From an uncultured Dehalococcoidia bacterium (GTDB taxonomy: Bacteria; Chloroflexota; Dehalococcoidia; Lucifugimonadales; UBA3495), in NCBI GenBank assembly GCA_958296385.1, contig OY282494.1:2686981-2750980 (forward strand): a stretch of DNA of 64,000 bases, read 5' to 3'. Position numbers and translations under genes: made by a program. Below are positions 3,229 to 20,397 of this stretch, one piece after another. Positions within the stretch are counted from its first letter, which is position 1. Each line of letters starts with the position of its first letter. The notes beneath the pieces were generated by a model. The model was not told the DNA's origin and made no database searches. It saw only the letters and a program-made list of their open reading frames with translations.

Positions 3229-3540
3229 ATCGGCGCGTGTCATACCTAGCTCAATCAGCGGCCAATAATCCTCAATCCAAGACTGACGGCCAGGCTTCAT
3301 CCGGATGATTTCGTCGCAGCTGATGCCAATCCGCAGTTCAACGAACATCCCCGGCGGTGTTGCCTCCCGATAACCAAGCCCCCGCAATTTGCGCAGTTCG
3401 GTTTCAATCGGGGGTCAACTTGTACTCGCTGGTGCACTGAGGCTTGGCTATTCCTTTGGCAGCCATCAACGCCATCAACGAGCTCAGCACGCCATCGCCC
3501 AACGAGATTACGGTTATTTCCGGCTCTCAGTGCATATTGC
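3217..3540 (-). pseudogene. Decayed gene of unknown function
   Basis: Two overlapping minus-strand frames give protein-like text. One contains EPEITVISLGDGVLSSLMAL. The other continues through ETELRKLRGLGYREATPPGM to a TAG at 3217-3219. They look like one reading frame split by a shift near 3410. I do not recognise the family. It abuts the GIY-YIG remnant, and the stretch from 2866 to 3647 contains no intact gene. Confidence 0.35.
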
Positions 3541-3647
3541 ATCGTAATCGCAACCCCGTATCGGCCCTATCCTTTGCTCATGCGATTTAGAATGCGACAA
3601 TTGGCCTACACCCTAAAGACAGCCCATCCGCAAATCGGCAGGATATA

Positions 3648-4442
3648 ATGACCAAACACGCCGTAATCATCCAGCATCACCCCGTCGAAACCCTGGGCGG
3701 CAATTTTACCGCCGTCCTGCAAGACGCCGGCTTTGTCCTTACTACCGTGCCGGTTTTCGCCGGCACTCTCGGTTTTGACCCTCCTGACCTTGCTGAGGTT
3801 GACTTGGTGGTTGCTTTGGGCGGGCCGATGTCGGCTAATGATGATTGGGCGGTTTTGCGGCTGGAGGCGGCTTATTTGCGGGCGGCGGCTACGGGGGCGG
3901 TGGGCGGTGCGCCGGTTACGCCGGTGGTGGGGGTTTGCCTGGGCGCGCAGCTGCTGTCCCGCGCGCTGGGCGGCGCCGTGGCCCCTACGGGCGGCTATCA
4001 GTTTGGGCTGCGCAAGCTTGACGTTACCGCCGCCGGGGATACTGACGCCGTCTTTCGCGCAATCGGAATCCCGCTGGCGCCTACTCTGCACGGGGAGCAG
4101 TTCACGGTGCCGCCGGGCGCGACGCTGCTGGCGCAGGGGACGATGCTGCGGCGAGATGGCGGCTACGTCCGCATCCCGATGGCCTTTCGCTACGGGCTGT
4201 CCTACGCCTTTCAGTTTGAGCCGCAACTGACTCTGGCCGAATTACAGGTCTGGAATCGGGAGCTGGCCGGCGATTACGACTTAATGGGCGCGCGTTTTGA
4301 CCCTGCTGAGGAGGCCGCCCGCAATCTGCGCGAGTTCGCCCGATTCGCCCCATTTCACGAGGCGCAGATGGCCCGGCTGCTGCGGGCGCTGCTGGCGCAG
4401 GCCGGTTTGCCGTCCGGTATCCCGGATGGTACAAACGCCTGA
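3648..4442 (+). CDS. Class I glutamine amidotransferase-like protein
   Basis: A 264-residue GATase1-type protein. The nucleophile elbow is intact (GVCLGAQLLSRALGG, C97), and a HGEQF motif follows near residue 148. In glutamine amidotransferases the catalytic histidine sits in a QFHPE-type motif. Here the matching text is FQFEPQ (residues 188-193), so the histidine is replaced by E191. The protein may therefore not hydrolyse glutamine in the usual way. It stands alone and ends in a 20 bp tandem repeat that overlaps its stop. An AGGA Shine-Dalgarno precedes the ATG. Confidence 0.8.
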   Translation: MTKHAVIIQHHPVETLGGNFTAVLQDAGFVLTTVPVFAGTLGFDPPDLAEVDLVVALGGPMSANDDWAVLRLEAAYLRAAATGAVGGAPVTPVVGVCLGAQLLSRALGGAVAPTGGYQFGLRKLDVTAAGDTDAVFRAIGIPLAPTLHGEQFTVPPGATLLAQGTMLRRDGGYVRIPMAFRYGLSYAFQFEPQLTLAELQVWNRELAGDYDLMGARFDPAEEAARNLREFARFAPFHEAQMARLLRALLAQAGLPSGIPDGTNA

Positions 4443-4496
4443 TGGTCTGCTAATCTGCCTGATGGTCTGATAATTCGCCTGATGGTCTGATAATCC
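4437..4496 (+). repeat. Three 20 bp tandem repeats at a gene 3' end
   Basis: Three consecutive 20 bp units, each starting GCCTGATGGTCTG, span the stop codon of the amidotransferase-like gene and the leader of the methyltransferase gene. Units 2 and 3 differ by one base. There are no spacers, so this is not a CRISPR array. Confidence 0.9.
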
Positions 4497-4513
4497 AATA
4501 GAGGTACGGCGCA

Positions 4514-5602
4514 ATGCAGCACTTGTTCTATCCGGGCGACAATCTGGACGGGCTGCGCCGGCTAGCGGAGCTGGGCGTCGTGGCGGATTTGGTCTATATC
4601 GACCCGCCTTTTGCCACCAACAACGAGTTTCTGATTGACGACGGCCGGGCCAACGCCGTCAGCGCATCGGGCCGTCCGGCCTACTCGGATACGGTGCGCG
4701 GGGACGACTATCTGGACGGCCTGCGCTGGCGGCTGTGCGCCATTCGCGACGTGATGGCGCCGGCCGGGTCGGTGTACGTCCATATTGACGTCAAGATGGA
4801 GCATCATGTCCGGCTGCTGCTGGATGGGGTGTTCGGGGCGCAAAACTTTCGCAACGCCATCACGCGCATCAAGTGCAACCCCAAAAACTTTGACCGCTAC
4901 TCCTACGGCAACATCAAGGACAGCATCCTTTTTTACTCGATGTCGCCGCACCGGATTACGTGGCATCCGCAGAGAGAGCCGCTGCGCGACGACGACATCG
5001 CCCGACTGTACCCGCTCACCGACGACGCCGGCCGCCGCTACGCGACTACGCCGCTGCACGCGCCCGGCGTTACCACCGGCGGGGCCACCGGCCAGCCCTG
5101 GCGGGGGATGCCGCCGCCGCCGGGCCGCCACTGGCGCTACCCTCCGGCCCGGCTGGACGCGCTGGACGCCGCCGGCCTGATTGAGTGGAGCAGCGCCGGC
5201 AACCCGCGCAAAATCCGCTACGCCAGCGCTGCGACGGGCAAACTGCCGCAGGACGTCTGGCTGTACAAAGACCCGCAGCGTCCGGCCTACCCCACGCAGA
5301 AAAACGCCCGGCTGCTGGAACGCATCATCCGCACCTCGTCCAACCCCGGCGATACCGTGCTGGACTGCTACGCCGGCAGCGGCGGCACACTGCTAACGGC
5401 GGCGCGCCTGGGCCGGCGGTTCATCGGAATGGACAACTCGCCGGCGGCGCAGCGGGTTATCGAGGAACGACTGCGGGCCGGCGGTTTGACACCCGGCACG
5501 GCGGCGATTAACCTGCTACCCGTCAAACGACGCATCAATCGACCGACGCATCGACCGACGCATCAATCAACGCAACTACGCAGCTCAATTGGAGGTATCT
5601 GA
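4514..5602 (+). CDS. Site-specific DNA methyltransferase, beta class (N6-adenine or N4-cytosine)
   Basis: A 362-residue methyltransferase with the catalytic DPPF motif at residues 30-33 and the AdoMet-binding CYAGSGG motif near 285-291. This motif order is that of the beta class, as in type III Mod and related enzymes. No restriction subunit is adjacent, so it is an orphan methyltransferase, either regulatory or left from a lost system. The last ~20 residues are low-complexity (PTHRPTHQSTQ), encoded by a short tandem repeat, and look like a run-on tail. The target sequence cannot be inferred. A dienelactone hydrolase gene starts two bases after the stop. Confidence 0.88.
   Translation: MQHLFYPGDNLDGLRRLAELGVVADLVYIDPPFATNNEFLIDDGRANAVSASGRPAYSDTVRGDDYLDGLRWRLCAIRDVMAPAGSVYVHIDVKMEHHVRLLLDGVFGAQNFRNAITRIKCNPKNFDRYSYGNIKDSILFYSMSPHRITWHPQREPLRDDDIARLYPLTDDAGRRYATTPLHAPGVTTGGATGQPWRGMPPPPGRHWRYPPARLDALDAAGLIEWSSAGNPRKIRYASAATGKLPQDVWLYKDPQRPAYPTQKNARLLERIIRTSSNPGDTVLDCYAGSGGTLLTAARLGRRFIGMDNSPAAQRVIEERLRAGGLTPGTAAINLLPVKRRINRPTHRPTHQSTQLRSSIGGI
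5530..5575 (+). repeat. Short tandem repeat in the 3' end of the methyltransferase gene
   Basis: Units of 12-16 bp built on CGACGCATC(AAT)GAC are repeated about three times and encode the PTHRPTHQ tail of the methyltransferase. Comparable local duplications occur at other gene ends in this window. Confidence 0.75.
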
Positions 5603-5604
5603 AT

Positions 5605-6351
5605 ATGGCTTACGACGGAATGATTGCCGAACAGGTTTGGGTTGAGGGGCATAACGGCGACGGCATCAACGCTTACGTGGCCCGCCCGCTGGGGTCGGGG
5701 CCGTTTCCCGCGGTGATGCTGTTCCACCATATGCCCGGCTGGGACGCCGCTACCAAGGAGATGGCGCGCAAGTTCGCGCACAACGGCTACATCGCCATCT
5801 CGCCCAACCTGCACTACCGGGAGGGCAGCGACGACCCCGTTGCCAACAGCAACAGCATCCGCGAGAAGGGCGGGATGCCCGACGACCGCACGCTGGGCGA
5901 CGCCGCCGGCGCCATCGGCTACCTGCGCCACCTGGACGTCCACAACGGCAAGGTAGGCATCATCGGGTTCTGCTCCGGCGGGCGGCAGGTGTTCCTGGCG
6001 GCCTGCAAGCTGTCGGGCATCGACGCGGCGGTGGACTGCTGGGGCGGCGGAGTAACCCCCCGCGACAGCGAGCCGCCCACCGAGGCCATGCCCCACGCGC
6101 CCATCGAGTTCGTGAACGACCTCAGCTGTCCGCTAATGGGCCTGTTCGGAGAGGACGACGCCCGCCCGTCCATCGCCGAAGTAGAGGCCACCGACGCCGC
6201 CATCAAAGCAGCCGGCAAGTCGTGGGAATACCACACCTACCCCAACGCCGGCCACGGCTTCTTCGCCGTCGACCGCCCCAGCTACGCCGTAGAAGCCGCC
6301 AACCAGGGCTGGGAAAGAGTGTTCGAGTTCTACGGCCGGCACTTGTCATAA
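5605..6351 (+). CDS. Dienelactone hydrolase family protein
   Basis: A cytosolic alpha/beta hydrolase of the carboxymethylenebutenolidase type, 248 residues. The nucleophile is cysteine (GFCSGG, C123), with an acidic residue in GEDDARP (about 184-185) and the histidine in NAGHGF (H217). Together these form the Cys-Asp-His triad typical of the family. The Shine-Dalgarno GGAGG lies upstream of ATG 5605 and overlaps the end of the methyltransferase gene, so co-transcription with it is likely. The substrate is unknown. A GC-rich hairpin follows the gene. Confidence 0.9.
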   Translation: MAYDGMIAEQVWVEGHNGDGINAYVARPLGSGPFPAVMLFHHMPGWDAATKEMARKFAHNGYIAISPNLHYREGSDDPVANSNSIREKGGMPDDRTLGDAAGAIGYLRHLDVHNGKVGIIGFCSGGRQVFLAACKLSGIDAAVDCWGGGVTPRDSEPPTEAMPHAPIEFVNDLSCPLMGLFGEDDARPSIAEVEATDAAIKAAGKSWEYHTYPNAGHGFFAVDRPSYAVEAANQGWERVFEFYGRHLS

Positions 6352-6384
6352 CTGGCCGCTGGCGTACCTCTCTGGTACAATCAG

Positions 6385-6412
6385 TCGGGGCGGGCAATAA
6401 CGCTCGCCCCGA
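6385..6412 (+). terminator. Probable terminator hairpin after the dienelactone hydrolase gene
   Basis: An 11 bp GC-rich stem (TCGGGGCGGGC with GCTCGCCCCGA) and a short AATAAC loop. The following T-run is weak, so termination is inferred from the stem and its position. A separate 8 bp inverted repeat (CTATCCGG/CCGGATAG, 6431-6458) lies in the leader of the next gene. Confidence 0.5.
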
Positions 6413-6483
6413 TTGACACAACAGGCAAGTCTATCCGGCGCTCTTTCGTACCGGATAGGTTAGTTTGCCGGTAAGGAGGAGAG

Positions 6484-7359
6484 GTGAACCAAGAGACCAT
6501 CGTCAAAGAAATTCCAACGGTCAACTACCATCTCTGGAAATCGTGCAACATGAGCTGCGGCTTCTGTTTCGCAACCTTTGATGACCTCCCACCGCAATTT
6601 GTAACGTATCTGAAAAAGGATGACGCCATTCTGTTAGTTGACTCGCTGTGCCAACACGGTTTCAGCAAAATCAACTTTGCCGGTGGCGAGCCCACCCTGT
6701 GCCGGTGGCTCCCTGACCTGATACGCCGCACGAAATTGCGCGGAGTGACTACATCCATTGTCACCAACGGCTCCCGAATCACGGAGAAGTGGCTGGATGA
6801 CTTGGATGGAACCCTCGACATTCTTGCTTTGAGCATTGACAGTGCGAACCTGGAAACATCGCGCCTGATCGGCCGTAAGACCCAGGACGGCCCGATGTCA
6901 GCGGATGATTACCGCCGCATAGCCGATGCCGTAAAGCAACGAGGCATACGCTTGAAAGTCAACACCGTCGTTAGCCGCGCTAACTGCGCTGAGGACATTA
7001 CAGCGTTCATCAAAGCAATTCACCCGGAGCGCTGGAAAGTTTTCCAAGCATTGCCAGTGCGTGGTCAGAACGACCAGCGCATTGCGGATTTCATCGTCTC
7101 AGACGATGAGTTCTCCCGGTATCTGGAACGCAACAAGCCAACGGTTTTGCAGGCTGGCATCAAGGTAGTGCCGGAAAGCAACGAGTTGATGACGGGCAGC
7201 TACATCATGGTTGACCCAATGGGGCGTTTTTTCGACAACACAAAAGGCGAGCATACTTACAGCTCGCCAATACTTGATGTCGGAGTTGCCGGGGCTCTGC
7301 GGGAAGTCGAGAGCTACCCGGAACGCTTTGACCGGAGAGGCGGGTTGTACAGCATCTGA
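6484..7359 (+). CDS. Prokaryotic viperin (radical SAM antiviral nucleotide synthase)
   Basis: Viperins are radical SAM enzymes that convert a nucleoside triphosphate to its 3'-deoxy-3',4'-didehydro form, a chain terminator of viral RNA synthesis. The protein has 291 residues and starts at GTG 6484 behind a strong AAGGAGG. The cluster cysteines are C21, C25 and C28 in CNMSCGFC. The viperin-specific text is extensive: KINFAGGEP, SIVTNGSRITEKW, LDILALSIDS, ERWKVFQ, VVPESNELM, SPILDVGV and RGGLY near the C-terminus. All of these align with animal viperin. No nucleotide kinase is adjacent, although some prokaryotic viperin loci have one. The nucleotide used (CTP, GTP or UTP) cannot be read from sequence alone. 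Confidence 0.9.
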   Translation: MNQETIVKEIPTVNYHLWKSCNMSCGFCFATFDDLPPQFVTYLKKDDAILLVDSLCQHGFSKINFAGGEPTLCRWLPDLIRRTKLRGVTTSIVTNGSRITEKWLDDLDGTLDILALSIDSANLETSRLIGRKTQDGPMSADDYRRIADAVKQRGIRLKVNTVVSRANCAEDITAFIKAIHPERWKVFQALPVRGQNDQRIADFIVSDDEFSRYLERNKPTVLQAGIKVVPESNELMTGSYIMVDPMGRFFDNTKGEHTYSSPILDVGVAGALREVESYPERFDRRGGLYSI

Positions 7360-7382
7360 TTGCTACCGGCAATCAACAAAGT

Positions 7383-7412
7383 CGAGGCGGTATGAGCATA
7401 GCTCATCCGCCT
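7383..7412 (+). terminator. Hairpin after the viperin gene
   Basis: A near-perfect stem (GAGGCGG and ATGAGC paired with GCTCAT and CCGCCTC) lies 24 bases after the viperin stop. There is no T-run, so it may act as an mRNA 3' stabiliser or a weak terminator. It separates viperin from the convergent helicase operon. I see no gene in the remaining 7413-7684. Confidence 0.5.
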
Positions 7413-7684
7413 CCTACCGGCCGCTGACCAGGTGTCCGCTGATTGCATATAGACTTCATAGCCGTAGCGTGATGGGGGTTGCCCACTGATTATGCCGGGT
7501 TGATTTGATTGGCGGGCGTCAGCGAGATTCCAGCAACACTTCGCACCGCCCGGATACGGCGTACCGTCTATTGGAGGCTTTTGTGGGCCAGGTGTTTTTC
7601 CAACGGCGATACACGCATCTCTGCGTACTACTCCTCCACTAATTCGTCCCGGCGTGTATCAACCGCTGACATTTCTGCTGGATT

Positions 7685-10600
7685 TCAGGCTTGTCTTCCC
7701 AGCGATTGGTAGGCCCACCCTTGGCGACGTAACAGGTTGAAGGTGTCCAGCACCGGAGGGTTATCCTGCTCGCAGTTGGCGATGGCTTCTGCCAGTAGTC
7801 CTTGCGGGTTTCTGGCGTCCCAGAAAGGATGCACTACCAGAACTTGCTCCTTGCCTATCGTAAAGCCGGGCAGCCGACCTGAATCACGCGGTTGTGCCGC
7901 CGGGAACGAGATGCAGAACGTGTTCCTGAGTTTGACAGCCTGTTCAAACCACTGTGCCAGGTCGGGCGATGAGAAATCGTCGTCCAGACCGCAGGCGAAT
8001 GCTTCTGATTCCAGCGACCGCAGCAGCGAAATGCCCAACCGCCAATCCAGCAACCCGTGGTAGGGCATATTCCGGTAGTTCCGGAGACAGCTGTAGCACG
8101 ACGAATCGCAGGACGCTTGGTGTTCTTCATTCAAGATGGTCCCGGCAAAACTCCCGGGCGCAGGGTAGGCGGAGATAATGGACGCTAGCAGGTCTGCCCA
8201 GTTGTCGTTAACCCATTGGGTGAACCCAGCGCCATTCGCCAGGTGGTCCCCGATGATAATTTCACCGGCTCTGATTTCTCCATCCAGTTCGACTTGGCGT
8301 ACATTGCTGATGTCAAACTCGTCGGGGTCGATGTCAAGCTGTTGGGCAGCGACCGCTTTGATTATGAACGCCGCCGAGTAGTATGCCGCTTTGATGCCGG
8401 CCGCCCCCACCGGATCCAGCAGCAACCCATGATGGATAGCCGCCGGGCGGATGCGTAGGACGTCCGTCGTTTTAGGCGCTACTATTGCAATGGATTCTTC
8501 CGCACTTGTCCCCGATGTAAAGTTGACTCCTTTTTGGAATCGCGCATCAATCCACTGGTTCTCCAAGCGCGCGCCGTTCCTTGTGGCCGTCGCACCGGTC
8601 CGGCCGGTAAAAAGCCTCCCGGACCGGTCATTGACCCGGTACAATCGCCCAGACTTGGAAAAGGCCGTCGCGCTGTTGGTGTCCCCCACTGGCGAACAGG
8701 ATTGCTCATCCGACTCTGATAGAGTAGCGACTCCGGTTGGCAGGAATTCGGTGTCCTCTTGTGAGTCAGCGCCCCAACCAAGGTTAGTCCGGAATGCCAC
8801 AGGAACAGCTATTTGGAATTTGCGGAAAGCCGGATTGCCGTCGGGCCCCCGGCCGCACTGCGGGCAATGCGTGTTCGAGGATTCAACTTCACTTGCTGTA
8901 GTATAGTGGCACTGCCCACAACGTTGCATCCACCGTAGCGAAGGTAGCGGATTACCAGGACTTGCGGACAATCTATTCTGCCGGTACAGGAGCGGCGTTG
9001 TGAACCCGATGGCTTGATGGACACGCTTGTCTTTGGTTCGCCGGGAACCGGGGGCGAATTCTGTGACGGCCAAATCAAGGTCGCGGTCGATGGTAAGGGG
9101 CTCCCTGTTGCGCAGACCATGATACAGGAGCCGCACGCGGGACGGCATCCCGTACATAGGCAGCACGGCGTATTCGGCCAGTTGCTCGGCTAGACCATCG
9201 CCCGTGATTTCGGGGTTATCGCACGCTTCGTCGATTTTGTCGCACAACTCGTGCCGTGCGTAATCTACCAAGTCGTTTGGCACAATGCTTGTCGTCAGCC
9301 CGGCACACAGCGCATTTGCAATGTCCTCTACTTCCGGTGATTTTTCCAACCACTTGCGAACCTCATCTTGCCGGTCTTTTTGAGCAATCCAATCGGATGC
9401 CAAGCCTAGTTCACCGTGGCTGTCCGGTGGGAGGTCGACTTCCCACCAACGAACTCCGGCAGCATAGAAAGCCCGCCGCAAGCACTCTTTCGCCATCAGC
9501 CGTTGCGCGATTTCTAGGCGGCCCATGGACAGGAACGGCACCGGGGGCGGTTCGCCGGTGATGCGGTCCAGGTTTTGGTAGTAAAACTCGTCGTGGCTGC
9601 GCCCGCGGCAGATGGTCAGCACAGTCGCGAACGGTTGACCGCGCCGGCCAGCGCGTCCGGATCGTTGCTGGTAGTTGAAACGCTGCGGCGGCATATTGCC
9701 CTGGACTACCCCCTGCAAGCTGCCAATGTCAACGCCGACTTCCAATGTCGTGGTGACGCTGAGCATATCGATTTCGTCGACCTCTCGCACAAGGGGATGT
9801 CGAGGGTCATCCCGCAGGTCAACGGTGATGTTGCGGAACAGCCTTTGCCGTTCCGCCGGGTCGTCGGTCTGGGCGGTTAGTTCCTCGGCGTGCAGGCGCA
9901 TCGGTTGCCGCAACTCAGCCGCCTCTTTCGCGTAGTAGTTGCGCTTGTGCAGGTCGGTGCAGGTGGCGTCTGGCACGGCGCTCAGCTCCCGCTGGCAGAA
10001 CGCGCTGGTACAAACGCCGGGGTTGTGCAGGTGAGGGCGCCGGCAGCTAGGGCAGTGCCACACCGGGTCATCCGGTAGCGCAACGCGAACTTGCAAGTGC
10101 CTGGGGGCAATTTTGAAATGGTAATGCCGGCCGGTATTACATATCGCTTCCCGGACAGTTTCCAGCAACGTGTCCTTGTTGACCCCGTGGACGGTTGCGC
10201 ATTTCTCGACAAAATGTCGTAAAGCGGCAAGCGCTGCTCCCCAATCCGGCCAATCTGGCGTCAGGTATTCGTTTTGGTCTTCTTTAGGATAGCGGAAGTA
10301 GTCCCCCAGCATCCGTAGGGTACCGTTCAGGATACTGGTTAGATTTTCCGGTTGTATATTGCAGACGGCAGCAAAGCGTTCCATTTCGGCATTGGGAAGT
10401 TCCAGCATAGCGTAGCCTAGTCCGCTGGATTCGAATCCGAAGTAAGACCGGGCGAACAGTACCGAGCAAATTTCGCCGGTGACCTTCTCCACGAGTTTGG
10501 CCTTCCCACGTTCCCGCCCGTCCGGGGACAGGTCCGGTTTCCAGCCGCCTTCGGCGCTGTCAAAATTAAACAAGGTTGTCCACCGACGATATTCGCCATC

Positions 10601-13393
10601 ATACCTGATCTCTTGGTAGAATATGTCTTGGCCGGCTGGATTGACGCCGAGTGCTTTCAACCTCTGGATTAGGGAGCCAGTCCCATGAGTTACTTCGTCG
10701 CTTTCAAAGAGGAGACGCAATGGAACGATGCGGCTGGCACCACGGCTGGAAATCCCGGCCAGTTTTGCGCGGGCTTCTACTGCGAGTTGCTGCGATGCCT
10801 CGCGTATTCCATGAGGCAAGCTGGCGAAAACATTGTCGTCAGTGTTCGCCAGATTAATCATCTCCCGGTAAGATTCTTGCAGTTCAGGACGGGCGTTAGC
10901 CAAGCCAGCGGCGTCTGGTGATACCGGGTTCCCGGTAGCTTGCAAGTCTGCCAGCAGGGCGGGCTCACTGATTGCCGATTTCCGCAACTCGTCGTACATT
11001 GCCTCCCGCACCAGGTCGGTATAATGTGTCCTTTCAATCCCGTTGGCAAGCTCCGCCGCGCCCTGCCGGCTGTCGGAGAAAACTACGAGCTTTCTGGCGT
11101 CCACCGGGAGGAAATGGAACATTTCTTTGGCCAGAATCTGGGTGACGCGCGCAAAGCCGGTACGGAAGCCACGCACCGGAGATTTGCGGTAGAGTCGGTG
11201 CCGGTAGTCCACCGCGCACAGCGGGCATACAGCGGGCAGAGCGCCAGTCTCTTTTGCATCCGGCTGGGTAAGCACGAATGCGTAGCCGGAGACGGGCTCT
11301 GTATTGCCCAGCTTTACCAACCCGGTTGCCGGATTCATGCTGGCTGCCATCCACCGGGCAGGGACAGTACTGCCGTCAAGGGCTGGCTGTTGCCGTCGGC
11401 GGGTCGAGTCAGGATTCAGTTGTTTGCTGCCGGATGGCCAGAATACCGCGAATTCCGAATATCTCCGGCGTTCCACAAAGCGGGCCGGTTGGCGGTCTGG
11501 CAAGCCTTCAATATCAGCGTCCGTAATCAGCAATTCCCAGCCTTGGTTATCCGGTCGTGAGAACCTGCTGCCGCCGAACATCGTTGTGCCGCACTGTTCG
11601 CAGTACAGGAGGTCCAGTACCCGGTGCGGCTCGTCGGCGTTGTTGCAAAGGATGCGTGTGTTGGTGAAGAGTTGGCCTGCAGTGCGACCTCCACTCATTT
11701 CTGCTGGATCGACCCCACAGCCGGGCTGGGTGCAGGCCCAGAGGCCCTCGATGTTCTTGAAGAACCAGTGCATCCGGAACGAAGGCAAGCTGGCACTATC
11801 GCCGCACAGCTCCCGTACCGCCAGCAGTCCCTGCGTAGCAGCGGATACCGTGTCTGCATCACAATCGTTGCCAAACAACCGGCGTCCAAAATCCGAGAGG
11901 CTGGTAGCCCTGGTCGTTTCGCCGTACGTGCAGGCAGCCAGCATACGCGCTCCCGCTTGCCAACCAGCCGATTGCAATATGTCTTCCAAGTTGCCGGCGA
12001 GTCCGGTGGACTGTTGTAGCTCTGCGGTAGCCGATTCCCGGTCTATTTCCAACTTTCGCGCTATGGCTACGAACGGTTCCGCAGGAAGGAACTTCTTGTC
12101 GTCGTGGTGCGGGACATCTGCTTGTTTTCCGGGAATTACTTCGGAGCTACTCCAAGCAGAGCCGAAGAATTCAGACAGGAAGCTCAGGCTTTCGTTATCG
12201 TCCGGCTCCAGCGATGCACTGGAACCCATAACCCGTAGCTTTGGGCTGTCCGGCGCCAGGCCAAGCCGGAGCAAAAGCAATTTTATCAGGTAAGCGACTT
12301 CCGTTCCGGCAGTGCCACGGTGTAAATGCAATTCGTCAACGACCAGGTGGAAAACACTGCCGTCTTTTTCCAGCCATTTCCTGGTCTTTTCAAAAATCCC
12401 GGCGTCAGCATCGCGCATCAGCATGACGCTGAGCATACTGAAATTCGTGATGAGGATGTCGGGAGGGTGGTCCTGCATATCCCAGCGGGAGCGCATTTCG
12501 GCGCCATCCAGGCGCGGAAAGAAGTAGCGGGTTTCCGGGTTGCCGGTCTCTTGGGCGTGTTGTTCTGCGGCGCTCGCCGCTCCATCGGCTTCCTGCAATC
12601 GGCGAGCTAATCTGTCAATCCGATTCCGGTCAGGGTTTTGCTCGCCGCGCACTTGCGTGGGGGCATTTTGTTCGTGCCCGGGGATAGGCGTGTCTGCGTT
12701 ATAACGCCCAAAGTAAAACCGGTTGCCGGTAAGGGTGCGGTCAAACCAATCGCGCGCTTCCGGCGAGTCCAGCGCGGCGCGCAGGCGACCTAACTGGTCT
12801 TCCACCAGAGCGTTCATCGGATAGAGGATGAGGCCGCGGATAGCAGCGTCACGGTTTTCGTGGCCGCGCTGTGGCACTCGCTGGCTTTTGCGGGCGGAAA
12901 CGCATTCTTGCCTCCAACCGCTGTTGCTCCACCAGTCATCCTGGTGATCTTGCTCCAGCCCTGGACTGCTCCATCCAGCGGATTCCCGGACCAGGTACGC
13001 TAGTAGCGGCAGCAGGAATGCCTCAGTTTTGCCTGACCCGGTGCCGGCGGTTACAACTGCGTTGTTGCCAGACAGCACTGCCCGGAGCATCTCTGCCTGG
13101 TGGTCGTAGAGGTAGTAATCTCCAAATAGGCCGCACGATGCCAGTTCTTGGAATGCGTCGATTTCCGATGGGCTCAGCCCGGGTAATTCTGCATTCGTCA
13201 AGTCCCGGATTTTCTTTCTCGACGACCGGTACTGTGGCACCGGCTCGATCCATGGTTCCTGGCAAATCTTGCCGGGTTCTCTCAAAAGCCGTTCGCGCTC
13301 TATTTCCAGCCCGGGGTACTGAGTCCCGAAGGCGGTTTTCACATAATCGATGTAGCTGTTGCGAACTTTATTAAAAGCGCCGATGGGATCCAT
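7685..13393 (-). CDS. Giant DEAD/DEAH-box helicase with DUF1998-type C-terminus (DruE-like)
   Basis: A 1,902-residue ATP-dependent helicase, probably the nucleic-acid motor of a Druantia-type defence system. Walker A is TAGTGSGKTE (residues 115-124), motif II is DELH (353-356), and motif VI is QRSGRAGRRG in the second RecA domain. Cysteine pairs (CPSC, CGQC, CPQC) suggest zinc-binding insertions. The C-terminal CDSSCYSCLRNYRN block is the four-cysteine signature of DUF1998. In DISARM the helicase and DUF1998 are separate proteins; a single ~1,900-residue chain is characteristic of DruE. The start at ATG 13393 has an AAGGAA Shine-Dalgarno and overlaps the preceding gene by 23 bases, making it the last gene of the operon. 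Confidence 0.8.
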   Translation of the reverse strand: MDPIGAFNKVRNSYIDYVKTAFGTQYPGLEIERERLLREPGKICQEPWIEPVPQYRSSRKKIRDLTNAELPGLSPSEIDAFQELASCGLFGDYYLYDHQAEMLRAVLSGNNAVVTAGTGSGKTEAFLLPLLAYLVRESAGWSSPGLEQDHQDDWWSNSGWRQECVSARKSQRVPQRGHENRDAAIRGLILYPMNALVEDQLGRLRAALDSPEARDWFDRTLTGNRFYFGRYNADTPIPGHEQNAPTQVRGEQNPDRNRIDRLARRLQEADGAASAAEQHAQETGNPETRYFFPRLDGAEMRSRWDMQDHPPDILITNFSMLSVMLMRDADAGIFEKTRKWLEKDGSVFHLVVDELHLHRGTAGTEVAYLIKLLLLRLGLAPDSPKLRVMGSSASLEPDDNESLSFLSEFFGSAWSSSEVIPGKQADVPHHDDKKFLPAEPFVAIARKLEIDRESATAELQQSTGLAGNLEDILQSAGWQAGARMLAACTYGETTRATSLSDFGRRLFGNDCDADTVSAATQGLLAVRELCGDSASLPSFRMHWFFKNIEGLWACTQPGCGVDPAEMSGGRTAGQLFTNTRILCNNADEPHRVLDLLYCEQCGTTMFGGSRFSRPDNQGWELLITDADIEGLPDRQPARFVERRRYSEFAVFWPSGSKQLNPDSTRRRQQPALDGSTVPARWMAASMNPATGLVKLGNTEPVSGYAFVLTQPDAKETGALPAVCPLCAVDYRHRLYRKSPVRGFRTGFARVTQILAKEMFHFLPVDARKLVVFSDSRQGAAELANGIERTHYTDLVREAMYDELRKSAISEPALLADLQATGNPVSPDAAGLANARPELQESYREMINLANTDDNVFASLPHGIREASQQLAVEARAKLAGISSRGASRIVPLRLLFESDEVTHGTGSLIQRLKALGVNPAGQDIFYQEIRYDGEYRRWTTLFNFDSAEGGWKPDLSPDGRERGKAKLVEKVTGEICSVLFARSYFGFESSGLGYAMLELPNAEMERFAAVCNIQPENLTSILNGTLRMLGDYFRYPKEDQNEYLTPDWPDWGAALAALRHFVEKCATVHGVNKDTLLETVREAICNTGRHYHFKIAPRHLQVRVALPDDPVWHCPSCRRPHLHNPGVCTSAFCQRELSAVPDATCTDLHKRNYYAKEAAELRQPMRLHAEELTAQTDDPAERQRLFRNITVDLRDDPRHPLVREVDEIDMLSVTTTLEVGVDIGSLQGVVQGNMPPQRFNYQQRSGRAGRRGQPFATVLTICRGRSHDEFYYQNLDRITGEPPPVPFLSMGRLEIAQRLMAKECLRRAFYAAGVRWWEVDLPPDSHGELGLASDWIAQKDRQDEVRKWLEKSPEVEDIANALCAGLTTSIVPNDLVDYARHELCDKIDEACDNPEITGDGLAEQLAEYAVLPMYGMPSRVRLLYHGLRNREPLTIDRDLDLAVTEFAPGSRRTKDKRVHQAIGFTTPLLYRQNRLSASPGNPLPSLRWMQRCGQCHYTTASEVESSNTHCPQCGRGPDGNPAFRKFQIAVPVAFRTNLGWGADSQEDTEFLPTGVATLSESDEQSCSPVGDTNSATAFSKSGRLYRVNDRSGRLFTGRTGATATRNGARLENQWIDARFQKGVNFTSGTSAEESIAIVAPKTTDVLRIRPAAIHHGLLLDPVGAAGIKAAYYSAAFIIKAVAAQQLDIDPDEFDISNVRQVELDGEIRAGEIIIGDHLANGAGFTQWVNDNWADLLASIISAYPAPGSFAGTILNEEHQASCDSSCYSCLRNYRNMPYHGLLDWRLGISLLRSLESEAFACGLDDDFSSPDLAQWFEQAVKLRNTFCISFPAAQPRDSGRLPGFTIGKEQVLVVHPFWDARNPQGLLAEAIANCEQDNPPVLDTFNLLRRQGWAYQSLGRQA

Positions 13394-14373
13394 GGGATGC
13401 GTTCCTTTCTGCCTGTTGTCCGACCTTTCCGGCGATTTTGTTGAAAAGGCTGGGAGGGACGCCCTCGAAAGCATAATGCCTGTCGCCATCGCCAGATGGT
13501 AGCGTATCTGCCAGTCGCGGAGAATGTCCGGAGCATAGTCCCAATGCTCTGGATAGCAGTGCGGGTAGTGGTGCGCTGTATGGAATGAGGACTGTGCGGG
13601 ACTCCGGTTCGTACCGCAGAACGTTCCGTGACGACAGTGCCAGCATAGCGTACCGTCCCCAGTCCGGATCGCACTCCGCGGATGCTCCGCCTTGCCACAG
13701 CCGGTAATGCCAGCTAGTTGTGGTTGGGTTCTGATAACGGCTTAATCGCCGCGGCGCGCGGGTCGCGCCGGCGGGGTAGAATCGCAGCCGTTCGACATCG
13801 AAATCCTCGCGACGCCAGTTCAATTCCGGTTCGTCCGTCCATGCCAACCCTTGCCGGTATTCCCGCAGCGAAACGGACGCCTGCGCCAGTAGCCGGGCTG
13901 GTGGGGAGGCAAGGTAACGTAGGCCAGTCGTTTCCGTAACTGATTGAATGGCCGCGGCGTTGCCGGCGCGCAATTCAACACGAGCGGGTGCGTAGGGGCT
14001 GGCGTCTGCTTGCGCGCGCGCTGATTTCTATACTGGCGGCGTTTGCCGCCTGCGCCAGTTGTGTGACAGTGCCCGGGGCCCGGGCGCCGCACAGAATCGC
14101 CCTCACTTGCCCTCTTCCTGGGAGAGCAGCCAGGGCCGGAGGCGCGGTGACGACCTGTATTCCGCTTGGGCTGGCGTGAACGTCTAGGTGTCCCAAGCAG
14201 CTCAACACGCGCAGCGCTTACCAGCGGTGTCCGGTAGCATTCTCACTATTCTGATGCTGCCCTGCTGTGACGGCCCTGCGGTGAACTTCATCAAAGCACC
14301 GCTTGAATCCCGCCCAAGATACCTGCCGTTCGGCAGAAAGGGCAAACAGGAGGATGTCGCCGTTATCGTACAT
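13371..14373 (-). pseudogene. Broken ~334-codon operon gene (position of DruG)
   Basis: The gene begins at ATG 14373, inside the last codons of the upstream gene, and ends at 13371, inside the start of the helicase gene. That is the expected overlap of an intact operon member. The frame is interrupted twice. A TAA at 14218-14220 follows GHRW, with the same frame continuing in ALRVLSCLGHLDV. A frameshift lies in the GCGCGCGCGC run near 14011-14020, after which the text continues QADASPYAPARVELRAGN to the end. Its length of 1003 bases is one over a multiple of three, consistent with a single-base shift. I do not recognise a domain. Mutation, assembly error in the GC run, or recoding are possible. 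Confidence 0.6.
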
Positions 14374-16429
14374 TACCGGCCGCCTCCAGTAGCCGCTCCC
14401 ATTTCGCTCTCTCGCCCGGCGCGTCCGGTAGTATGATGCGCTTGCGCCGGTGCCAGATGGCTTGCTTCCAGTCTTGGACTTTCCGGCGGGTTGGTGTAAA
14501 GGTTGCATCCGGCAGTGACGTCCCCAGTTCTCCGCCGACAAATATTGCTGCCAATCGCTTGTGGTTGCGCTTCCGTATTACCCACGTGGGCGTCCACTCA
14601 CCGGGGAATGGCTCCGACGGCCATGTTGCGATTTGGCCAGGTTGCTGGCCTATGAGCAGGCCCTGCAAATTGCCCAACTCGTACTCCAAGTCCTCGAACA
14701 GTTCAGCTGCGGAAACAGTCATTTGTGGACGATCGCCATAGACGTGTGCGCCGGTGATAACGGTCTTGTTAGCGGTACTGTGGGAGCTGGCGCCCGCGCT
14801 GTCCAGAAACAACTCCGGCTGTGCCGTAGGCAGGCTGAAGTCGCCACTGAGGAACAGGGATTGACGGCCCAGCACCGATTGCCCGTCGCGGATTTCAAGG
14901 GTAATCCGGGGGCCGGTTGGCAGGTCATCAGGGAGGATAAAAGTCCCATCGCTATTCGCGGCGGGCAGAGGTGTCTCGCCGTGATAAACCCTGGTGCCAG
15001 CCGGGCCTCCGGTAACAACGATTGCGGGAGGGGCAAAGTTGAAAAAACTGTTCCTGCCGCCGTGGCGAATTCCGCCGGCCAAGCCGATGCGTGCCCGTGG
15101 CGGGAAGGCCAGGGACGGAAATTCGCCTTTCAATGCCGCGTCGTCATCGGCTGAAGCGACGCTTGCCAGTCGCCAGGACTCTGGCAACCCTTGGGCTATC
15201 TCAATTTCTTGGAACCCGCGGCACTGTCTGGTAACCCAATGTTCAAGTTTGGGCCAAGCGTCCTCAGGATAGCAAAGGTAGAAAGGTTGGCCTTGCGGCA
15301 AAGCCGGCGTGTCAACGAGCCCGCTGATGCCTTCCGGCATACCGTTGGTAAAAATTCTTACCGGACGCCCTTGCAGGTTCAACCGCCAACCGGTTGACCC
15401 GTCTCGCATGGTCATCCCGTTGCGCCAGTCAAGTTGAGCGGCGTCTAAGGTCTGCCCGGTATCATTATGCTCGAGCGGCAATGACCACTGGTTGACATCT
15501 TCTTCTGCCAGGAACTCTCCATCCAGTAGCAAGCCATCTTCTGGGAACTCATGGTTCATCTTGCACCGCAGGGATGCCTTGACGATGCCCGCTATCCGGT
15601 CTAGGTCAATGCACACGCGGAGCCCAGCGCTTCTTTGCCCCTGCTCCGTATGACCTGGGATGGTTGCGGTAGTTGTTCCGTCCCATGCCATTAGTTCGTC
15701 GGCAACAGCCTCGATTAGGGCGGTGCATAGTTCGAGTCCGTGCTCGCCTGCTGCCATCTGGACAGTTCTGGCGCGTAGCATCCTCAGGGCAGTGGGGTTG
15801 CGTAGAGCCATTGCGAGCTCGCCGGCTGAGTGTAGCGCTGCCGGGTCTAATCCGGCGCTGTCAAAAACCCGGGGCAGTGCCCGCCGGTCCTGCTCGGCCA
15901 GGATTGACTGGGAAAGCGGGTATCCGATGTGGATGTTGCCGCCGATGCTGCGGGATTGGAAAATGCCCAAATCACCGTGCTTGTCAGATACCGTCCAGTC
16001 CTCCAGGTCGTCCCATAATTGTCTCATACGGTGGAACGATGGGACTTGCCCGGTCTCGCTGCTGTGCGTGCCTCCCAGTAGTCCCCTAAGCCTGGGATGG
16101 TAGGCGTGGGGCGCGAAATCACCGTCGATGTCGCTGGCTAGTACGAAGAAGCACAGGTAGGCGATGTAAGGCGGGAAATCCACGCCGCTGGCGCGCCAGT
16201 TGTAGAATGACTGCCAGGCCCTTTGGCATACGCCGGCACGAATGGGTGCGGTCGGAGTTCCCGCGATTGCGTTCCGGAAAATAAGGGCTTGCGGCGTCGC
16301 CTGTATCATCTCCTGTCCCATCTCGTCAACGATGGCTTGGTTGACGTACAGGTAGACGTTCCGGCCGGCCATATCAGGATTGAAGAAGCGCGACGCTAAC
16401 GCGTCATTCCATTGCTGGTAAGCGTCCAT
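14363..16429 (-). CDS. Unknown 688-residue protein in Druantia-like operon (position of DruF)
   Basis: A large soluble protein without a domain I can name. The N-terminal half is mixed helical (FFNPDMAGRNVYLYVNQAIV). The C-terminal half is rich in beta-type text (ARIGLAGGIRHGGRNSFFNF, FAPPAIVVTGGPAGTRVY, GPRITLEIRDGQSVL), suggesting Ig-like or beta-sandwich domains between about residues 440 and 570. There is no signal peptide or membrane segment. ATG 16429 was chosen. An in-frame TTG at 16435 would overlap the glycosylase stop by a few bases. Its 3' end overlaps the next gene by 11 bases. Position and size suggest a Druantia accessory subunit; this is inference. Confidence 0.6.
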   Translation of the reverse strand: MDAYQQWNDALASRFFNPDMAGRNVYLYVNQAIVDEMGQEMIQATPQALIFRNAIAGTPTAPIRAGVCQRAWQSFYNWRASGVDFPPYIAYLCFFVLASDIDGDFAPHAYHPRLRGLLGGTHSSETGQVPSFHRMRQLWDDLEDWTVSDKHGDLGIFQSRSIGGNIHIGYPLSQSILAEQDRRALPRVFDSAGLDPAALHSAGELAMALRNPTALRMLRARTVQMAAGEHGLELCTALIEAVADELMAWDGTTTATIPGHTEQGQRSAGLRVCIDLDRIAGIVKASLRCKMNHEFPEDGLLLDGEFLAEEDVNQWSLPLEHNDTGQTLDAAQLDWRNGMTMRDGSTGWRLNLQGRPVRIFTNGMPEGISGLVDTPALPQGQPFYLCYPEDAWPKLEHWVTRQCRGFQEIEIAQGLPESWRLASVASADDDAALKGEFPSLAFPPRARIGLAGGIRHGGRNSFFNFAPPAIVVTGGPAGTRVYHGETPLPAANSDGTFILPDDLPTGPRITLEIRDGQSVLGRQSLFLSGDFSLPTAQPELFLDSAGASSHSTANKTVITGAHVYGDRPQMTVSAAELFEDLEYELGNLQGLLIGQQPGQIATWPSEPFPGEWTPTWVIRKRNHKRLAAIFVGGELGTSLPDATFTPTRRKVQDWKQAIWHRRKRIILPDAPGERAKWERLLEAAGNVR

Positions 16430-16431
16430 AA

Positions 16432-17148
16432 TCAACGTCCCTGCTGAGTCAGGTCCACGTTTTCGTCTCTACTCTGGGCGTAGGCGCAATTTACAGCAAT
16501 TTGGCACCGTCCGCAATGGGGCGCCTGCGGTTTGCAAACCGTAGCTGCGAAGTCAAGCAAGCCGTAATTGTGTTCCCGGAATCGCTCACGCGGCAGCAGT
16601 GCTTTTGCGATTTCCCAGACTGCACCAGCGCGACGTATGTCGCTAGCGGTAGGGCTTCCCGTAATTCGCGACAGGACTCGTACTATGCTGAGGTCGACAA
16701 TGGGCACACGCTGGCCGAAAGCAAAGCAGGCTACTGCGTGCGCTGTGTATAAACCGACGTAGGGCAGCCGCAACAGTTGTTCCGGTTGCGAGGGCAACGC
16801 GCTGTTCTGCACTAGCGCTGTTGCGAGTTCGATGAGCGCTACGGTCCGCTGGTTTCCGAAACCCAGCACTGAAATTATCCCACGCAGCTCTGCCGGGTCG
16901 GCTATGGACAGTTCGTATGCGTCTGGGTATCGATTTACCAGAGCCGGCCATATCTTAGCGACCTTCCCGGCGCGTGTTTGTTTGAGCAGGATTTCCGCGA
17001 GCAAGATGCCAAAGGGGGTTGTCCTCTTGTCTCGCCATGGGAAAGAGCGGCCTTGCTCAGCATATAGCCGGACGAAAAAGTCATCGGCTATTCCCAATCT
17101 GGGCATTTGGTGAGGCGTTGCCATCTCTGGCGGCGTTGCGCGAGTCAT
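16432..17148 (-). CDS. HhH-GPD DNA glycosylase, MutY/Mig-like
   Basis: A base-excision glycosylase of the endonuclease III superfamily, 238 residues from ATG 17148. The helix-hairpin-helix is at about 127-137 (LRLPYVGLYTAHAV). The catalytic aspartate is D152 in VDLSIVRVLSR. Where endonuclease III has its lysine, this protein has Y134, as in MutY and in the thymine-DNA glycosylase Mig.Mth. The C-terminal iron-sulfur motif is complete (C205, C212, C215, C221; spacing 6-2-5). It lacks the long C-terminal 8-oxoG recognition domain of MutY. Since it follows a C5-cytosine methyltransferase gene, repair of T:G mismatches from deaminated 5-methylcytosine is the likeliest role, as for Mig.Mth next to its methylase. 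Confidence 0.82.
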   Translation of the reverse strand: MTRATPPEMATPHQMPRLGIADDFFVRLYAEQGRSFPWRDKRTTPFGILLAEILLKQTRAGKVAKIWPALVNRYPDAYELSIADPAELRGIISVLGFGNQRTVALIELATALVQNSALPSQPEQLLRLPYVGLYTAHAVACFAFGQRVPIVDLSIVRVLSRITGSPTASDIRRAGAVWEIAKALLPRERFREHNYGLLDFAATVCKPQAPHCGRCQIAVNCAYAQSRDENVDLTQQGR

Positions 17149-17188
17149 AACGAACCCGCCTCGTTGGTATGGGCCAACGCCAGCGTGC

Positions 17189-18265
17189 TTACCCGTAGCC
17201 CAAGGTTTGGATGATTGACTTGGCAATGCCTTTCGCCATGGATGGCGGCACGGCATCCGATACCAGGCGTACTTGCTCCGTGAACGTACCGAGCAACTGG
17301 TACGAGTGGGGAAAGCCTTGTAACAGCATGGCTTCATAGATGGACAGCCTACGATGGCAGCCAGGATGTATGTGTACTTCGTTATGCCCGTAAGCGACGG
17401 TGTAACTCGGAGCGTCCCAAGCCAGCACTTTGAAGCTCAATCCCCCGCTGTTTCCAGGCGATAGGCTCCCGTTGGTGAATTTCGGCGACCGGGGAACCAT
17501 TGCTATGTGATTAGGGTGGCAGGGAATAACATCAGGCTCCAATCCCTGCGCGCAATAGACAGGCTCCGGCAGGCCGGCGATCGCGCTCTCGACACTGGGT
17601 GGAGTACTGTGTCCTTCCGGCAGCGTCAGTCTGGCTGCCGGATACCTTTTCGCGTTGATACCAACCATAATCAACCGCTTGCGATGCTGTGGAACTCCAA
17701 ACTTGCCGGCGTCCAGGACGCCGTCGTACACATTGAAACCCGCGGCGGCGGCAGTTTTTGCGACTTCTGCAAGCAGGGGCTTGTGCTTGCTGTGGTTTAG
17801 ACCGGGTACGTTTTCGAGCACGAAGAACTCGAGGCCGCGACGATCCGCGAAGATTTTGATGATACTTGCGTAGTTGCGGAGGAGTTTGCGTCTGGGGTCG
17901 CTGTCGCTCTGATGAACGTTGGACGAAGAAAATCCCTGGCAAGGCGGACCTCCGATTATCCCCGCCAACTGTGCGCCTCCGGTGGTATTGTCCCACAGGT
18001 CCAGGATGGCCTCCGGCGCCACTTTGCCCAGGTCCAGCGTTGCGGTTGTGGCGTCCGGGTGATTACGGCCGTAGGTCGCTATGGCGGCAGGGTTGATGTC
18101 GATAGCAAGGAGGGGGTTGAACCCGGCACTCTCGAAGCCGCAGTCCAGTCCGCCGGAACCTGAGAACAGGCTAAGTACCGGCCACTGGCCGGCGCATTTC
18201 AAGGAGCTGGAAATCCCTTCCGGTGCTTTGGCTTCGGCTTTGTGCAAAATTACCTCCTTAATCAT
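17189..18265 (-). CDS. DNA (cytosine-5-)-methyltransferase (DruM-like)
   Basis: All main C5-methyltransferase motifs are visible: motif I LSLFSGSGGLDCGF (31-44), the catalytic GGPPCQGFS (C109), motif VI ENVPG (151-155), motif VIII QHRKRL (193-198), a target-recognition segment, and motif X near DAVPPSMAKGIAKSI. It is the first gene of the Druantia-like operon. The start is ambiguous. ATG 18265 has no Shine-Dalgarno, whereas the in-frame TTG at 18247 sits five bases after AAGGAGG, so the real protein may be six residues shorter. The ~120 bases upstream are AT-rich, with small palindromes around ATCATATGAT, and may hold the operon promoter or operator. Confidence 0.9.
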   Translation of the reverse strand: MIKEVILHKAEAKAPEGISSSLKCAGQWPVLSLFSGSGGLDCGFESAGFNPLLAIDINPAAIATYGRNHPDATTATLDLGKVAPEAILDLWDNTTGGAQLAGIIGGPPCQGFSSSNVHQSDSDPRRKLLRNYASIIKIFADRRGLEFFVLENVPGLNHSKHKPLLAEVAKTAAAAGFNVYDGVLDAGKFGVPQHRKRLIMVGINAKRYPAARLTLPEGHSTPPSVESAIAGLPEPVYCAQGLEPDVIPCHPNHIAMVPRSPKFTNGSLSPGNSGGLSFKVLAWDAPSYTVAYGHNEVHIHPGCHRRLSIYEAMLLQGFPHSYQLLGTFTEQVRLVSDAVPPSMAKGIAKSIIQTLGYG

Positions 18266-18384
18266 ATGATAATCATACGATACGGCATTCCGTCGCAGTA
18301 GGTCTTGTTTTTTTACAAGCGCCGACGGGTGAAAATCCAAGTCTAAACACCTCTATTGGAGATAGCCAGCACCAGCGGAGGGGC

Positions 18385-18775
18385 ATGATGGACCTGGACA
18401 CCCAGATAATAGCAGTCATTTGCTGGATTGATGATGCTTTGCAGAGCCTCTTTCGGGGACAGGGGGGCCGCCAGCGCGGTCCGCAACCGGCATTGTACGA
18501 CGCTAAGGCGTTGACCATGGCAGCCGTGGGGATTACAGGGCTTCAGCCGGGGCAATAGGATCTGCTGGTACTTTCGCCGGCACTACTGCCACTGCTTTCC
18601 GGCCCGAGCGGGAGTCGGCCGCAACATTTTCTTGGGCCAGGCCGCCAACCTCCGGTGGCGCAAGGAGCGGCTCTGGAAAATGCTCCTGGACTCCACCCTG
18701 ATCCTCCGATGGTTGCCCAGATTTTTGCGCCGCGAGTGTGGCAGCCTCACCGTCATGCGCCGCATCCTGGCGTAG
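18385..18775 (+). mobile_element. IS982-family transposase remnant
   Basis: The first frame reads MDLDTQIIAVICWIDDALQS, then RQRGPQPALYDAKALTM, and stops at 18556-18558. A second frame continues with YFRRHYCHCFPARAG, FLGQAANLRWRKERLWK and stops at 18773-18775. This is the N-terminal ~130 residues of the transposase type annotated as IS982 in Chloroflexota. The DDE core and both ends are missing. It separates the defence operon from the IS1 remnants. Confidence 0.6.
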
Positions 18776-18830
18776 TCATCGGCTTTGATGCAGGCCGACA
18801 CGCGGCTAGGGTATTCTTATATGTGCGTGC

Positions 18831-19418
18831 ATTGAATTGGCAGCGCCCGCCCCGGACGTACCAGCAGGCCAGCGCAATGGAATACACCAGCATCACAATG
18901 CTTTTCGTATAGCCTTTCGTCCGTCGCACCGGATGGTTCAGCTTACCCCGCAGCCACGAATGCAACCTCTCGTTCCAGTTCGCCGGCCCGTACTTCCCCG
19001 CCTCGTGCCGGTTCGTCGGCAGCCAGCCGTACACCGGATACCCGTCGCTGCAACCCCGCATCCGGCAGCCTCTCGTACAGCCGCAGGAAGGGTTTTTCGT
19101 TGCGGCCGCCCACCTCAAAGTCCATCCGGTGCCGTCCAAATCCAGCAGTCCTCCCGCTGATCTCCACGCCGCACTCCCCCCGCTTTGACCGCCGGCCCCG
19201 ACCGGCGATAGTCCCCTTCCGGCAGATAGGAACGGCGGCAGTCGTCGCACTTAAACCGTTGCCGGCCTTTGCTATGACCAGCTTTGGCCATCCAGTTGGA
19301 GCCACAATCCGTGCAGCGGACATCGTGGCGATAAGCGCGCGGGCGAACCATCATCCTACCTCACGCAACCAGCAATCAACCCCACTATATCCAATGTCAG
19401 CATAGATTAGGAGTACCC
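18831..19418 (-). mobile_element. IS1-family element copy a, deleted
   Basis: The left part encodes the IS1-type zinc ribbon (CTDCGSNWMAKAGHSKGR) from ATG 19354 and then jumps to REDCWIWT, so the helix-turn-helix and the first catalytic aspartate are deleted. Downstream pieces retain the DGYPVYGWLP-type and KGYTKS text in other frames. One end is recognisable near 19418 (GGTACTCCTAATC). The other terminal repeat is gone. The promoter-proximal sequence (CATTGGATATAGTGGGG) groups it with copies d and e. It abuts the transposase remnant at 19420-19638. Confidence 0.75.
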
Positions 19419-19419
19419 C

Positions 19420-19638
19420 GGTTCGCGTTCTAGTCCATAACCCGTCCAGCTCCAAGTAGCGGAACACCGGCGTCCGCAACCGGATTGTGCCGTAGCTGGT
19501 GGTGATAGTGCGGGCGTACCAATGATGCCGGTGCATCGCCAGGCCGCAGCCCGGGCAGAGCGGCTGGCAATCGTCCAAGGCCTGCTGCAACCAGACGGGC
19601 ATCTGCCGCTCCAACCGGGTTTCCAAATCATAAAGCAC
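19420..19638 (-). pseudogene. Truncated transposase remnant, second copy
   Basis: From GTG 19638 the frame reads VLYDLETRLERQMPVWLQQ, then CPGCGLAMHRHHWYARTI, matching the remnant at 683-1040 residue for residue over most of its length. It then diverges into LELDGLWTRTRTG, a catalytic-domain-like phrase absent from the first copy, and is cut by IS1 copy a. An internal deletion has probably removed the second zinc pair. Confidence 0.55.
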
Positions 19639-19754
19639 TCCCGTAACAACGCCCCTCCCGCCGATTTCAGACCCAGGTAATTGCACCCACCCTACAACCA
19701 AACCACCTAAATACCTTTGCCCCCAAGCACCCGCTACTCCGTCAAAATCCCCCG

Positions 19755-20285
19755 CCAAATCCAAAAATCAGCGACCCCAACCTCTTGCAACCGTACATCG
19801 GTTCGTGTAAGATACATCCATCGGGCAAATCAACAACCAATCCCCGCCTCAGCCGTTCTCCACCGGAGAGCGCCCCTGAGGAACCGGGGCCATCACACTA
19901 TCACAACACCGCATCAAACGTCGCCGGAGATTCCAGTCACCACGGCCACCCCCGTCAGCATCCAAACCGCAATCGGCCAGGCCGACCCATCGACGCTTTC
20001 ACGGCGTGGGCGGTACTCCGCAGGGTATCGAGCTTCAGCCCGCGTGCTGCTCCCCCAAAGGGCAGGACACGTAAAATGAAGGTCCGTAATAGTTGCGTAA
20101 AAACCTTCCGGCCGTAAGGGCTGACACCGACTGGAATTTCCGGCGATAACCAACAACCGAACCACCCAAACCAAACCGAACCCACCGCCCGATAGCCAAT
20201 CGCCCGATACCACGCCCGCCCGATACCGGCCAACCACAAACCCACTCCCAAAGGATGACCGGTTATGACTTGACCAAACCACCTG
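19755..20285 (-). repeat. ~500 bp intergenic repeat, copy 1
   Basis: Read on the minus strand, this segment matches 42396-42890 through most of its length. Shared landmarks, in order, are TTTGGTCAAGTCAT, CTTTGGGAGTGGGTT, GGTATCGGGC, TACGCAACTATT, TTCATTTTACGTGTCCT, CGGGCTGAAGCTCGATACC, GCCCACGCCGTG, TGTGATGGCCCCGGTT, GTATCTTACACGAAC and GGGGGATTTTGACGG. No conserved ORF, terminal inverted repeat or target duplication was seen. It fills the 19.7-20.3 kb gap between IS remnants and the VOC gene. It could be a non-autonomous mobile element or the relic of a larger one. Confidence 0.7.
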
Positions 20286-20397
20286 CAACGCAACGCAACC
20301 CCCTTTGCCCCCCGTACTTGACAGCATTACCCCCGTGCCATACCGTTGCCCAAACCGTTGCCACTCGCCGAGGTGGTAGCAATAAGGAGGTTTCGTT

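Follow-up and report, generated by a model that had tools for sequence, protein, structure and literature searches.

Enzymes of the viperin family, which are radical SAM ddh-nucleotide synthases, produce ddh-NTPs that end phage RNA chains (PMC10732462, PMC12926258), and a PADLOC survey from 2026 saw viperins together with a TPR partner in Archaea only (PMC12988326). The viperin described here is coded within a window of 64,000 nucleotides (the whole stretch of DNA that was analysed) from the genome of an uncultured Dehalococcoidia bacterium of the phylum Chloroflexota. Its product matches the prokaryotic viperins (pVips) in length and fold, in its radical SAM core and cluster motif and in the residues of the nucleotide pocket, but differs in having no kinase, either adjacent or fused. 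The sequence-only reading had already pointed to the missing nucleotide kinase, and the adjoining genes are indeed those of a dienelactone hydrolase and of the Druantia helicase DruE. A kinase-coupled viperin was ruled out for this reason; the top-scoring PADLOC model on the protein is the radical-SAM half of a viperin-kinase fusion. The protein also has the fold and the residues around SAM and CTP of animal viperin (RSAD2; mouse structures 6q2p and 5vsl), although it is 36-39% identical to RSAD2 and has no N-terminal membrane helix.

The assignment of the gene to the viperin family is carried by profile scores, tree and fold. The protein scores 299 bits (E 2.7e-89) with the NCBIfam profile NF038283 (viperin_w_prok), whose curated cut-off is 180 bits, and 262-301 bits with the PADLOC pVip models (PDLC02903-02905), and the solved structures closest to it by sequence are viperins (7n7h, 1e-48; mouse 5vsl, 1.6e-46). 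The motifs quoted in the sequence-only reading (CNMSCGFC, KINFAGGEP, NGSRITEKW, ERWKVFQ, VVPESN, SPILDVGV and RGGLY) are all present in the ORF. An AlphaFold2 model, for which the input was the sequence itself plus six relatives (pLDDT 82.5), superimposes on mouse viperin with CTP (6q2p) with a TM score of 0.87, Z 34.6 and an rmsd of 2.0 A over 274 residues, against Z 17.7 for MoaA and Z 16.1 for NifB. In the alignment C21/C25/C28, K62, K158, N160, R183, K185, E231, N233, S239 and Y240 correspond to mouse C84/C88/C91, K120, K220, N222, R245, K247, E293, N295, S301 and Y302, all of them invariant or nearly so, and we take these mouse residues to line the SAM and nucleotide pocket.

There is next to no chance that the gene codes for a different radical SAM enzyme (MoaA, SPASM or NifB-like) with just the cluster motif in common. 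Distant profile matches to such families do occur (66 bits for MoaA, and others), but they fall far under their cut-offs, and the structural comparison favours viperin by Z 34.6 to 17.7. The phylogeny that had been suggested as a check was run with 27 viperins and four MoaA sequences as outgroup; NifB, absent from the tree, was compared by fold instead. Every viperin, the window's included, falls on one side of a branch with 100/100 support, and the genome's own MoaA (379 bits) falls outside it. Other radical SAM families were ruled out by score, tree placement and fold. By sequence and model, the window gene is thus a genuine bacterial viperin, as first proposed, and the enzyme is ordinary in its identity, adding one more to the prokaryotic viperins already known.

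Features of the viperin locus and of the second viperin locus of the same genome (window positions unless a locus is named)
Feature	Position	Strand	Basis or remark
Dienelactone hydrolase, last gene before breakpoint	5605..6351	+	genus core gene
Accessory block with viperin at left edge, ~14 kb	6369..20385	.	missing at orthologous place in same-genus genome G006
Candidate -10 box TACAAT	6376..6381	+	by eye
Hairpin H1, 12 bp, presumed mRNA 5' end	6384..6413	+	fold prediction
Helix P1 (6424-6429 with 6464-6469)	6424..6469	+	fold prediction
Hairpin P3 (6430-6438 with 6451-6459), holds 8-bp inverted repeat	6430..6459	+	fold prediction
P3 loop CUCUUUC, 7-nt complementarity (two G-U) to ribosome site	6441..6447	+	
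Ribosome-binding site GGAGGAG, pairs with 6441-6447	6475..6481	+	
Viperin (family of radical SAM ddh-nucleotide synthases), GTG start codon, 291 aa	6484..7359	+	profiles, tree, fold
[4Fe-4S] cluster motif CNMSCGFC, residues 21-28	6544..6567	+	
Druantia helicase DruE, 1934 aa	7685..13489	-	PADLOC types 2/4
DruL4-like C-terminal part, possibly truncated	13371..13973	-	profile 132-319 of 330
DruF4-like	14363..16435	-	
HhH-GPD protein	16432..17337	-	MutY-like / type II nicking endonuclease profile
C5 cytosine methyltransferase	17189..18340	-	MTase_II / DruM2-like
Second viperin and HTH-TPR gene	L028:7737-10434 (G000:C1:3016136-3018833)		

Based on the sequence and the structural model, the window enzyme is very probably a solo viperin whose ddh-nucleotide product would act against phages by terminating their RNA chains. 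If it works as the rest of the family does, its [4Fe-4S] cluster and SAM would generate a 5'-deoxyadenosyl radical, which would abstract the 4'-hydrogen of a ribonucleoside triphosphate to give a 3'-deoxy-3',4'-didehydro-NTP, and incorporation of this product by a phage RNA polymerase would end the RNA chain. Direct action on the triphosphate would make an adjacent kinase unnecessary. The pair of loops by which CTP-type and UTP-type structures can be told apart did not point clearly to one NTP, and the enzyme could also act on some substrate outside the range of NTPs established for viperins.

The gene lies, as the sequence-only reading had placed it, between the dienelactone hydrolase and the Druantia genes. 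Window positions 1076-6368 are collinear with the same-genus genome G006 at about 90% identity, the synteny ending 17 nt past the hydrolase gene, and similarity restarts at window position 20386, for which the corresponding G006 position is 127 kb further on; the stretch between the two breaks is therefore accessory in the window genome. The hydrolase itself is 82-95% identical in eight same-genus genomes. GC content is 53.7% in the viperin gene and 57-60% in the Druantia genes, versus 65-68% in adjacent core genes. A mobile element as the source of the block was set aside, though it may still apply, because the window has no tRNA and notable border repeats are missing from 6300-21000. A dispersed repeat of about 254 bp is found at window positions 619-881 and 19458-19711, at L028:15521-15731 and in more than 20 copies in G006, and the two window copies, which are inverted, flank the viperin-Druantia region on its left side and at its right end.

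On the left of the viperin are genes for NUDIX, DndB-like, glutamine amidotransferase, N6/N4 methyltransferase and dienelactone hydrolase proteins. On the right, DruE and DruF are strong matches, and the DruL-like piece covers the C-terminal part of its profile and may be truncated. The N-terminal 130 residues of the DruL-like gene (13371-14362, minus strand) are apparently missing and neighbouring frames contain stops, so the Druantia system may be impaired or differently composed. The HhH-GPD gene overlaps that of the C5 cytosine methyltransferase (16432-18340, minus strand), an arrangement that resembles a nicking-repair or restriction pair beside Druantia. The idea of a defence island, put forward before this analysis, thus fits the window genome, with its Druantia and methyltransferase genes, but does not extend to the clade, since the relatives of the window viperin in four genomes (G025, G045, G057 and G040) adjoin housekeeping genes such as those for an epimerase and an aminopeptidase. 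The link with Druantia is therefore local, and location in a defence island is not a trait of the clade.

These housekeeping neighbours could also mean that a true viperin fold has been retained for a role other than defence, for example in housekeeping nucleotide chemistry. We consider this improbable, because presence of the gene is patchy, decay has been repeated among relatives, and in the window the gene combines low GC with Druantia and methyltransferase neighbours. Low GC, patchy presence and decayed copies in relatives point instead to the usual turnover of defence genes, in line with an antiphage viperin. Viperins above the cut-off were found in 9 of the 250 genomes of the order and in 3 of 400 sampled from the phylum, a tally that takes in the window's own genome. 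Decayed or cut copies, as expected for genes often gained and lost, occur in G005, G010, G011, G497 and G605, those of G605 stopping at contig ends. The phage records held no close relative of the window viperin, and its plasmid relatives are at most 45% identical. Three IMG/VR viral contigs do carry viperins (L128:5938-6810, L129:5920-6810 and L130:6001-6822) at 292-301 bits, above the curated cut-off, which form a clade of their own (100/100); L128 also carries a terminase large subunit, so a phage may have a viperin of its own.

In the window genome there is also a second viperin, which is 53% identical to the first. Downstream of it by 70 nt and on the same strand is a gene whose 558-aa product combines an XRE-like HTH domain with C-terminal TPR repeats. 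The locus resembles the archaeal TPR-linked viperins (PMC12988326) in having a TPR-containing gene directly downstream, but it is bacterial, its partner adds an HTH domain and it lies outside the PADLOC partner models, none of which matches the bacterial HTH-TPR proteins. The viperin/HTH-TPR pair was found at nine loci in the phylum, the window genome's included; further pairs, on one strand and closely spaced, are those of G040, G216, G310, G640, G472 and G497 (two), and the pair of G011 consists of remnants. In three genomes the HTH-TPR gene occurs as a solo copy. The first viperin has no such partner, its downstream gene being DruE on the opposite strand. In the tree these viperins form two sister clades. 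Support is 98/91 for the seven rows of the clade linked to HTH-TPR genes, in which G015 lacks the partner, and 100/98 for the six rows of the partnerless clade, to which the window viperin belongs.

Upstream of seven viperins of the HTH-TPR clade (L079, L080, L030, L081, L078, L077 and L063) there is a promoter-like element, TTTGTCC-n-ACTGGGGCTGAC-n-TACGAT, a candidate operator that is conserved while the remaining leader varies. Beside the second viperin, L028:4028-7688 codes in one operon for a 716-aa protein weakly like the PADLOC candidate PDC-M33A and for two uncharacterised proteins, and this operon is possibly an undescribed defence system. The window genome is a single contig of 3.30 Mb, and its 16S rRNA fits the bacterial model from end to end (1542 bits). 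In a genome of the same class, a TAT-type reductive dehalogenase was seen near the HTH-TPR gene.

Viperins of the partnerless clade appear, from comparison of their leaders, to share a previously undescribed folded leader RNA, seen in five intact relatives and one relic. The leaders of G025, G045, G057, the first copy of G040 and G705 have in common a hairpin, GUCUY-loop-RAGAC, about 30-50 nt upstream of the start codon. The pattern was restricted to these five leaders when 3.3 Mb of sequence was searched on both strands; in the whole genomes it occurs 1-3 times each, and a loop of UCACY or CUCUC is found in the viperin copies only. The hairpin is nested in a helix P1, whose sequence varies between leaders, and in an outer helix P0 that abuts the ribosome site and exists in the versions GACCC/GGGUC, GACCU/AGGUC and GACUU/AAGUC. 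Helices were misplaced in whole-leader MAFFT alignments owing to a variable extra hairpin, and segments were therefore trimmed by hand. In the trimmed alignments all pairs form and 11 of the 19 pairs changed on both sides, a result equalled by 0 of 500 shuffles, with the pair counts biased towards the structure because trimming followed it. A stricter shuffle test, on P1 plus P0, was passed by four of the five leaders; G705 failed because of a bulge in its P1. Loop and ribosome site are complementary, as UCACC/GGUGA in most leaders and as CUCUC/GAGAG in G705, so that covariation between loop and ribosome site comes from one lineage.

No Rfam family matches these leaders, even at permissive thresholds. 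A covariance model, R1, built on the five leaders and run over the 250 genomes of the order, recovered two training loci and two new matches (G472 and G618). Training leaders score 21-34.5 bits and the G472 match, which was outside the training set, 27.9 bits. The latter (L221/L223, G472:C1:1716865-1716930) is followed by a ribosome site, an ATG and a viperin relic reading SCGFCFATY, so that about 10 recognisable viperin residues remain behind an intact leader RNA, beside an epimerase gene like that next to the viperins of G045 and G057. Elsewhere in its genome G472 also retains a viperin of the HTH-TPR type. The G618 match (24.4 bits) was taken as chance, as there is no viperin downstream.

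The window's own leader scores 4.0 bits with R1, which is no match, and it was therefore not counted as a member of the motif. It is nevertheless predicted to fold strongly (-64.1 kcal/mol), with a z of -6.1 and none of 200 shuffles as good, and its topology resembles that of the relatives, with a hairpin inside a helix directly before the ribosome site. It may be the relatives' device in a form that has diverged or evolved anew, although we advance this with some reserve. A promoter scan of the leader gave no full sigma-70 match. The strong ribosome site of the sequence-only reading was found (AAGGAGG), whereas its single 8-bp inverted repeat proved to be two perfect repeats. One such repeat means little by itself, being present in 41 of 500 shuffled leaders. 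The P3 loop can form 7 contiguous pairs with the ribosome site (CUCUUUC/GGAGGAG), which a random loop manages in 5% of trials; any such loop precedes 4 of the 233 genes of these genomes, and only that of the window viperin faces an AAGGAG-like site. The predicted open state (P1 and P3) has -49.2 kcal/mol and the sequestered state -47.8 kcal/mol, a gap of 1.4 kcal/mol.

From these folding predictions, and in line with the controlled expression suggested in the sequence-only reading, we tentatively propose that the output of the window viperin is gated at translation by its leader. The 5' leader would alternate between a form with P1 and P3, which leaves the ribosome site free, and a form in which the P3 loop pairs with the ribosome site; with the site sequestered, little of the SAM- and NTP-consuming enzyme would be produced before some signal tips the balance. 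SAM-II and preQ1-II are translational riboswitches with a pseudoknot between a loop and the ribosome site. In the viperin leaders, too, a hairpin loop is predicted to pair with the ribosome site, but they differ from these riboswitches in having no Rfam match. A literature search, with most subscription papers outside its reach, linked viperin to no riboswitch or leader RNA.

The repeats in the leader might instead act as DNA-level operator sites or as a terminator of the hydrolase gene, a reading that we regard as quite possible without thinking it probable. It is consistent with the occurrence of 8-bp inverted repeats in 8% of shuffled leaders, with the relatives' core GTCTY-N-RAGAC, which is itself palindromic, and with the conserved promoter-like element of the sister viperin clade. 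However, no T run follows H1 and no terminator was called there. An operator would also not need the nested outer helices of the relatives, which vary in sequence, to stay paired, nor would it need the joint change of loop and ribosome site in G705. Returning to translational control, the clade as a whole may be described as one in which a conserved pseudoknotted leader, possibly a riboswitch or infection sensor, controls translation of partnerless Chloroflexota viperins, with a diverged version in the window, while the sister clade uses an HTH-TPR partner and one genome holds both. This wider picture is plausible to us and is offered as a working model somewhat short of likely.

The window enzyme is a bacterial viperin from the Dehalococcoidia, a lineage of the Chloroflexota where viperin is rare. 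What deserves further study is the leader RNA, which is the new lead, together with the sister viperin's HTH-TPR partner, and the occurrence in one genome of two sister viperin lineages that differ in their apparent control, by an RNA leader and by an HTH-TPR partner, would allow the question of control to be tested side by side. Should the leader act in the proposed way, it would answer directly how bacteria keep a toxic chain-terminator enzyme silent until infection.
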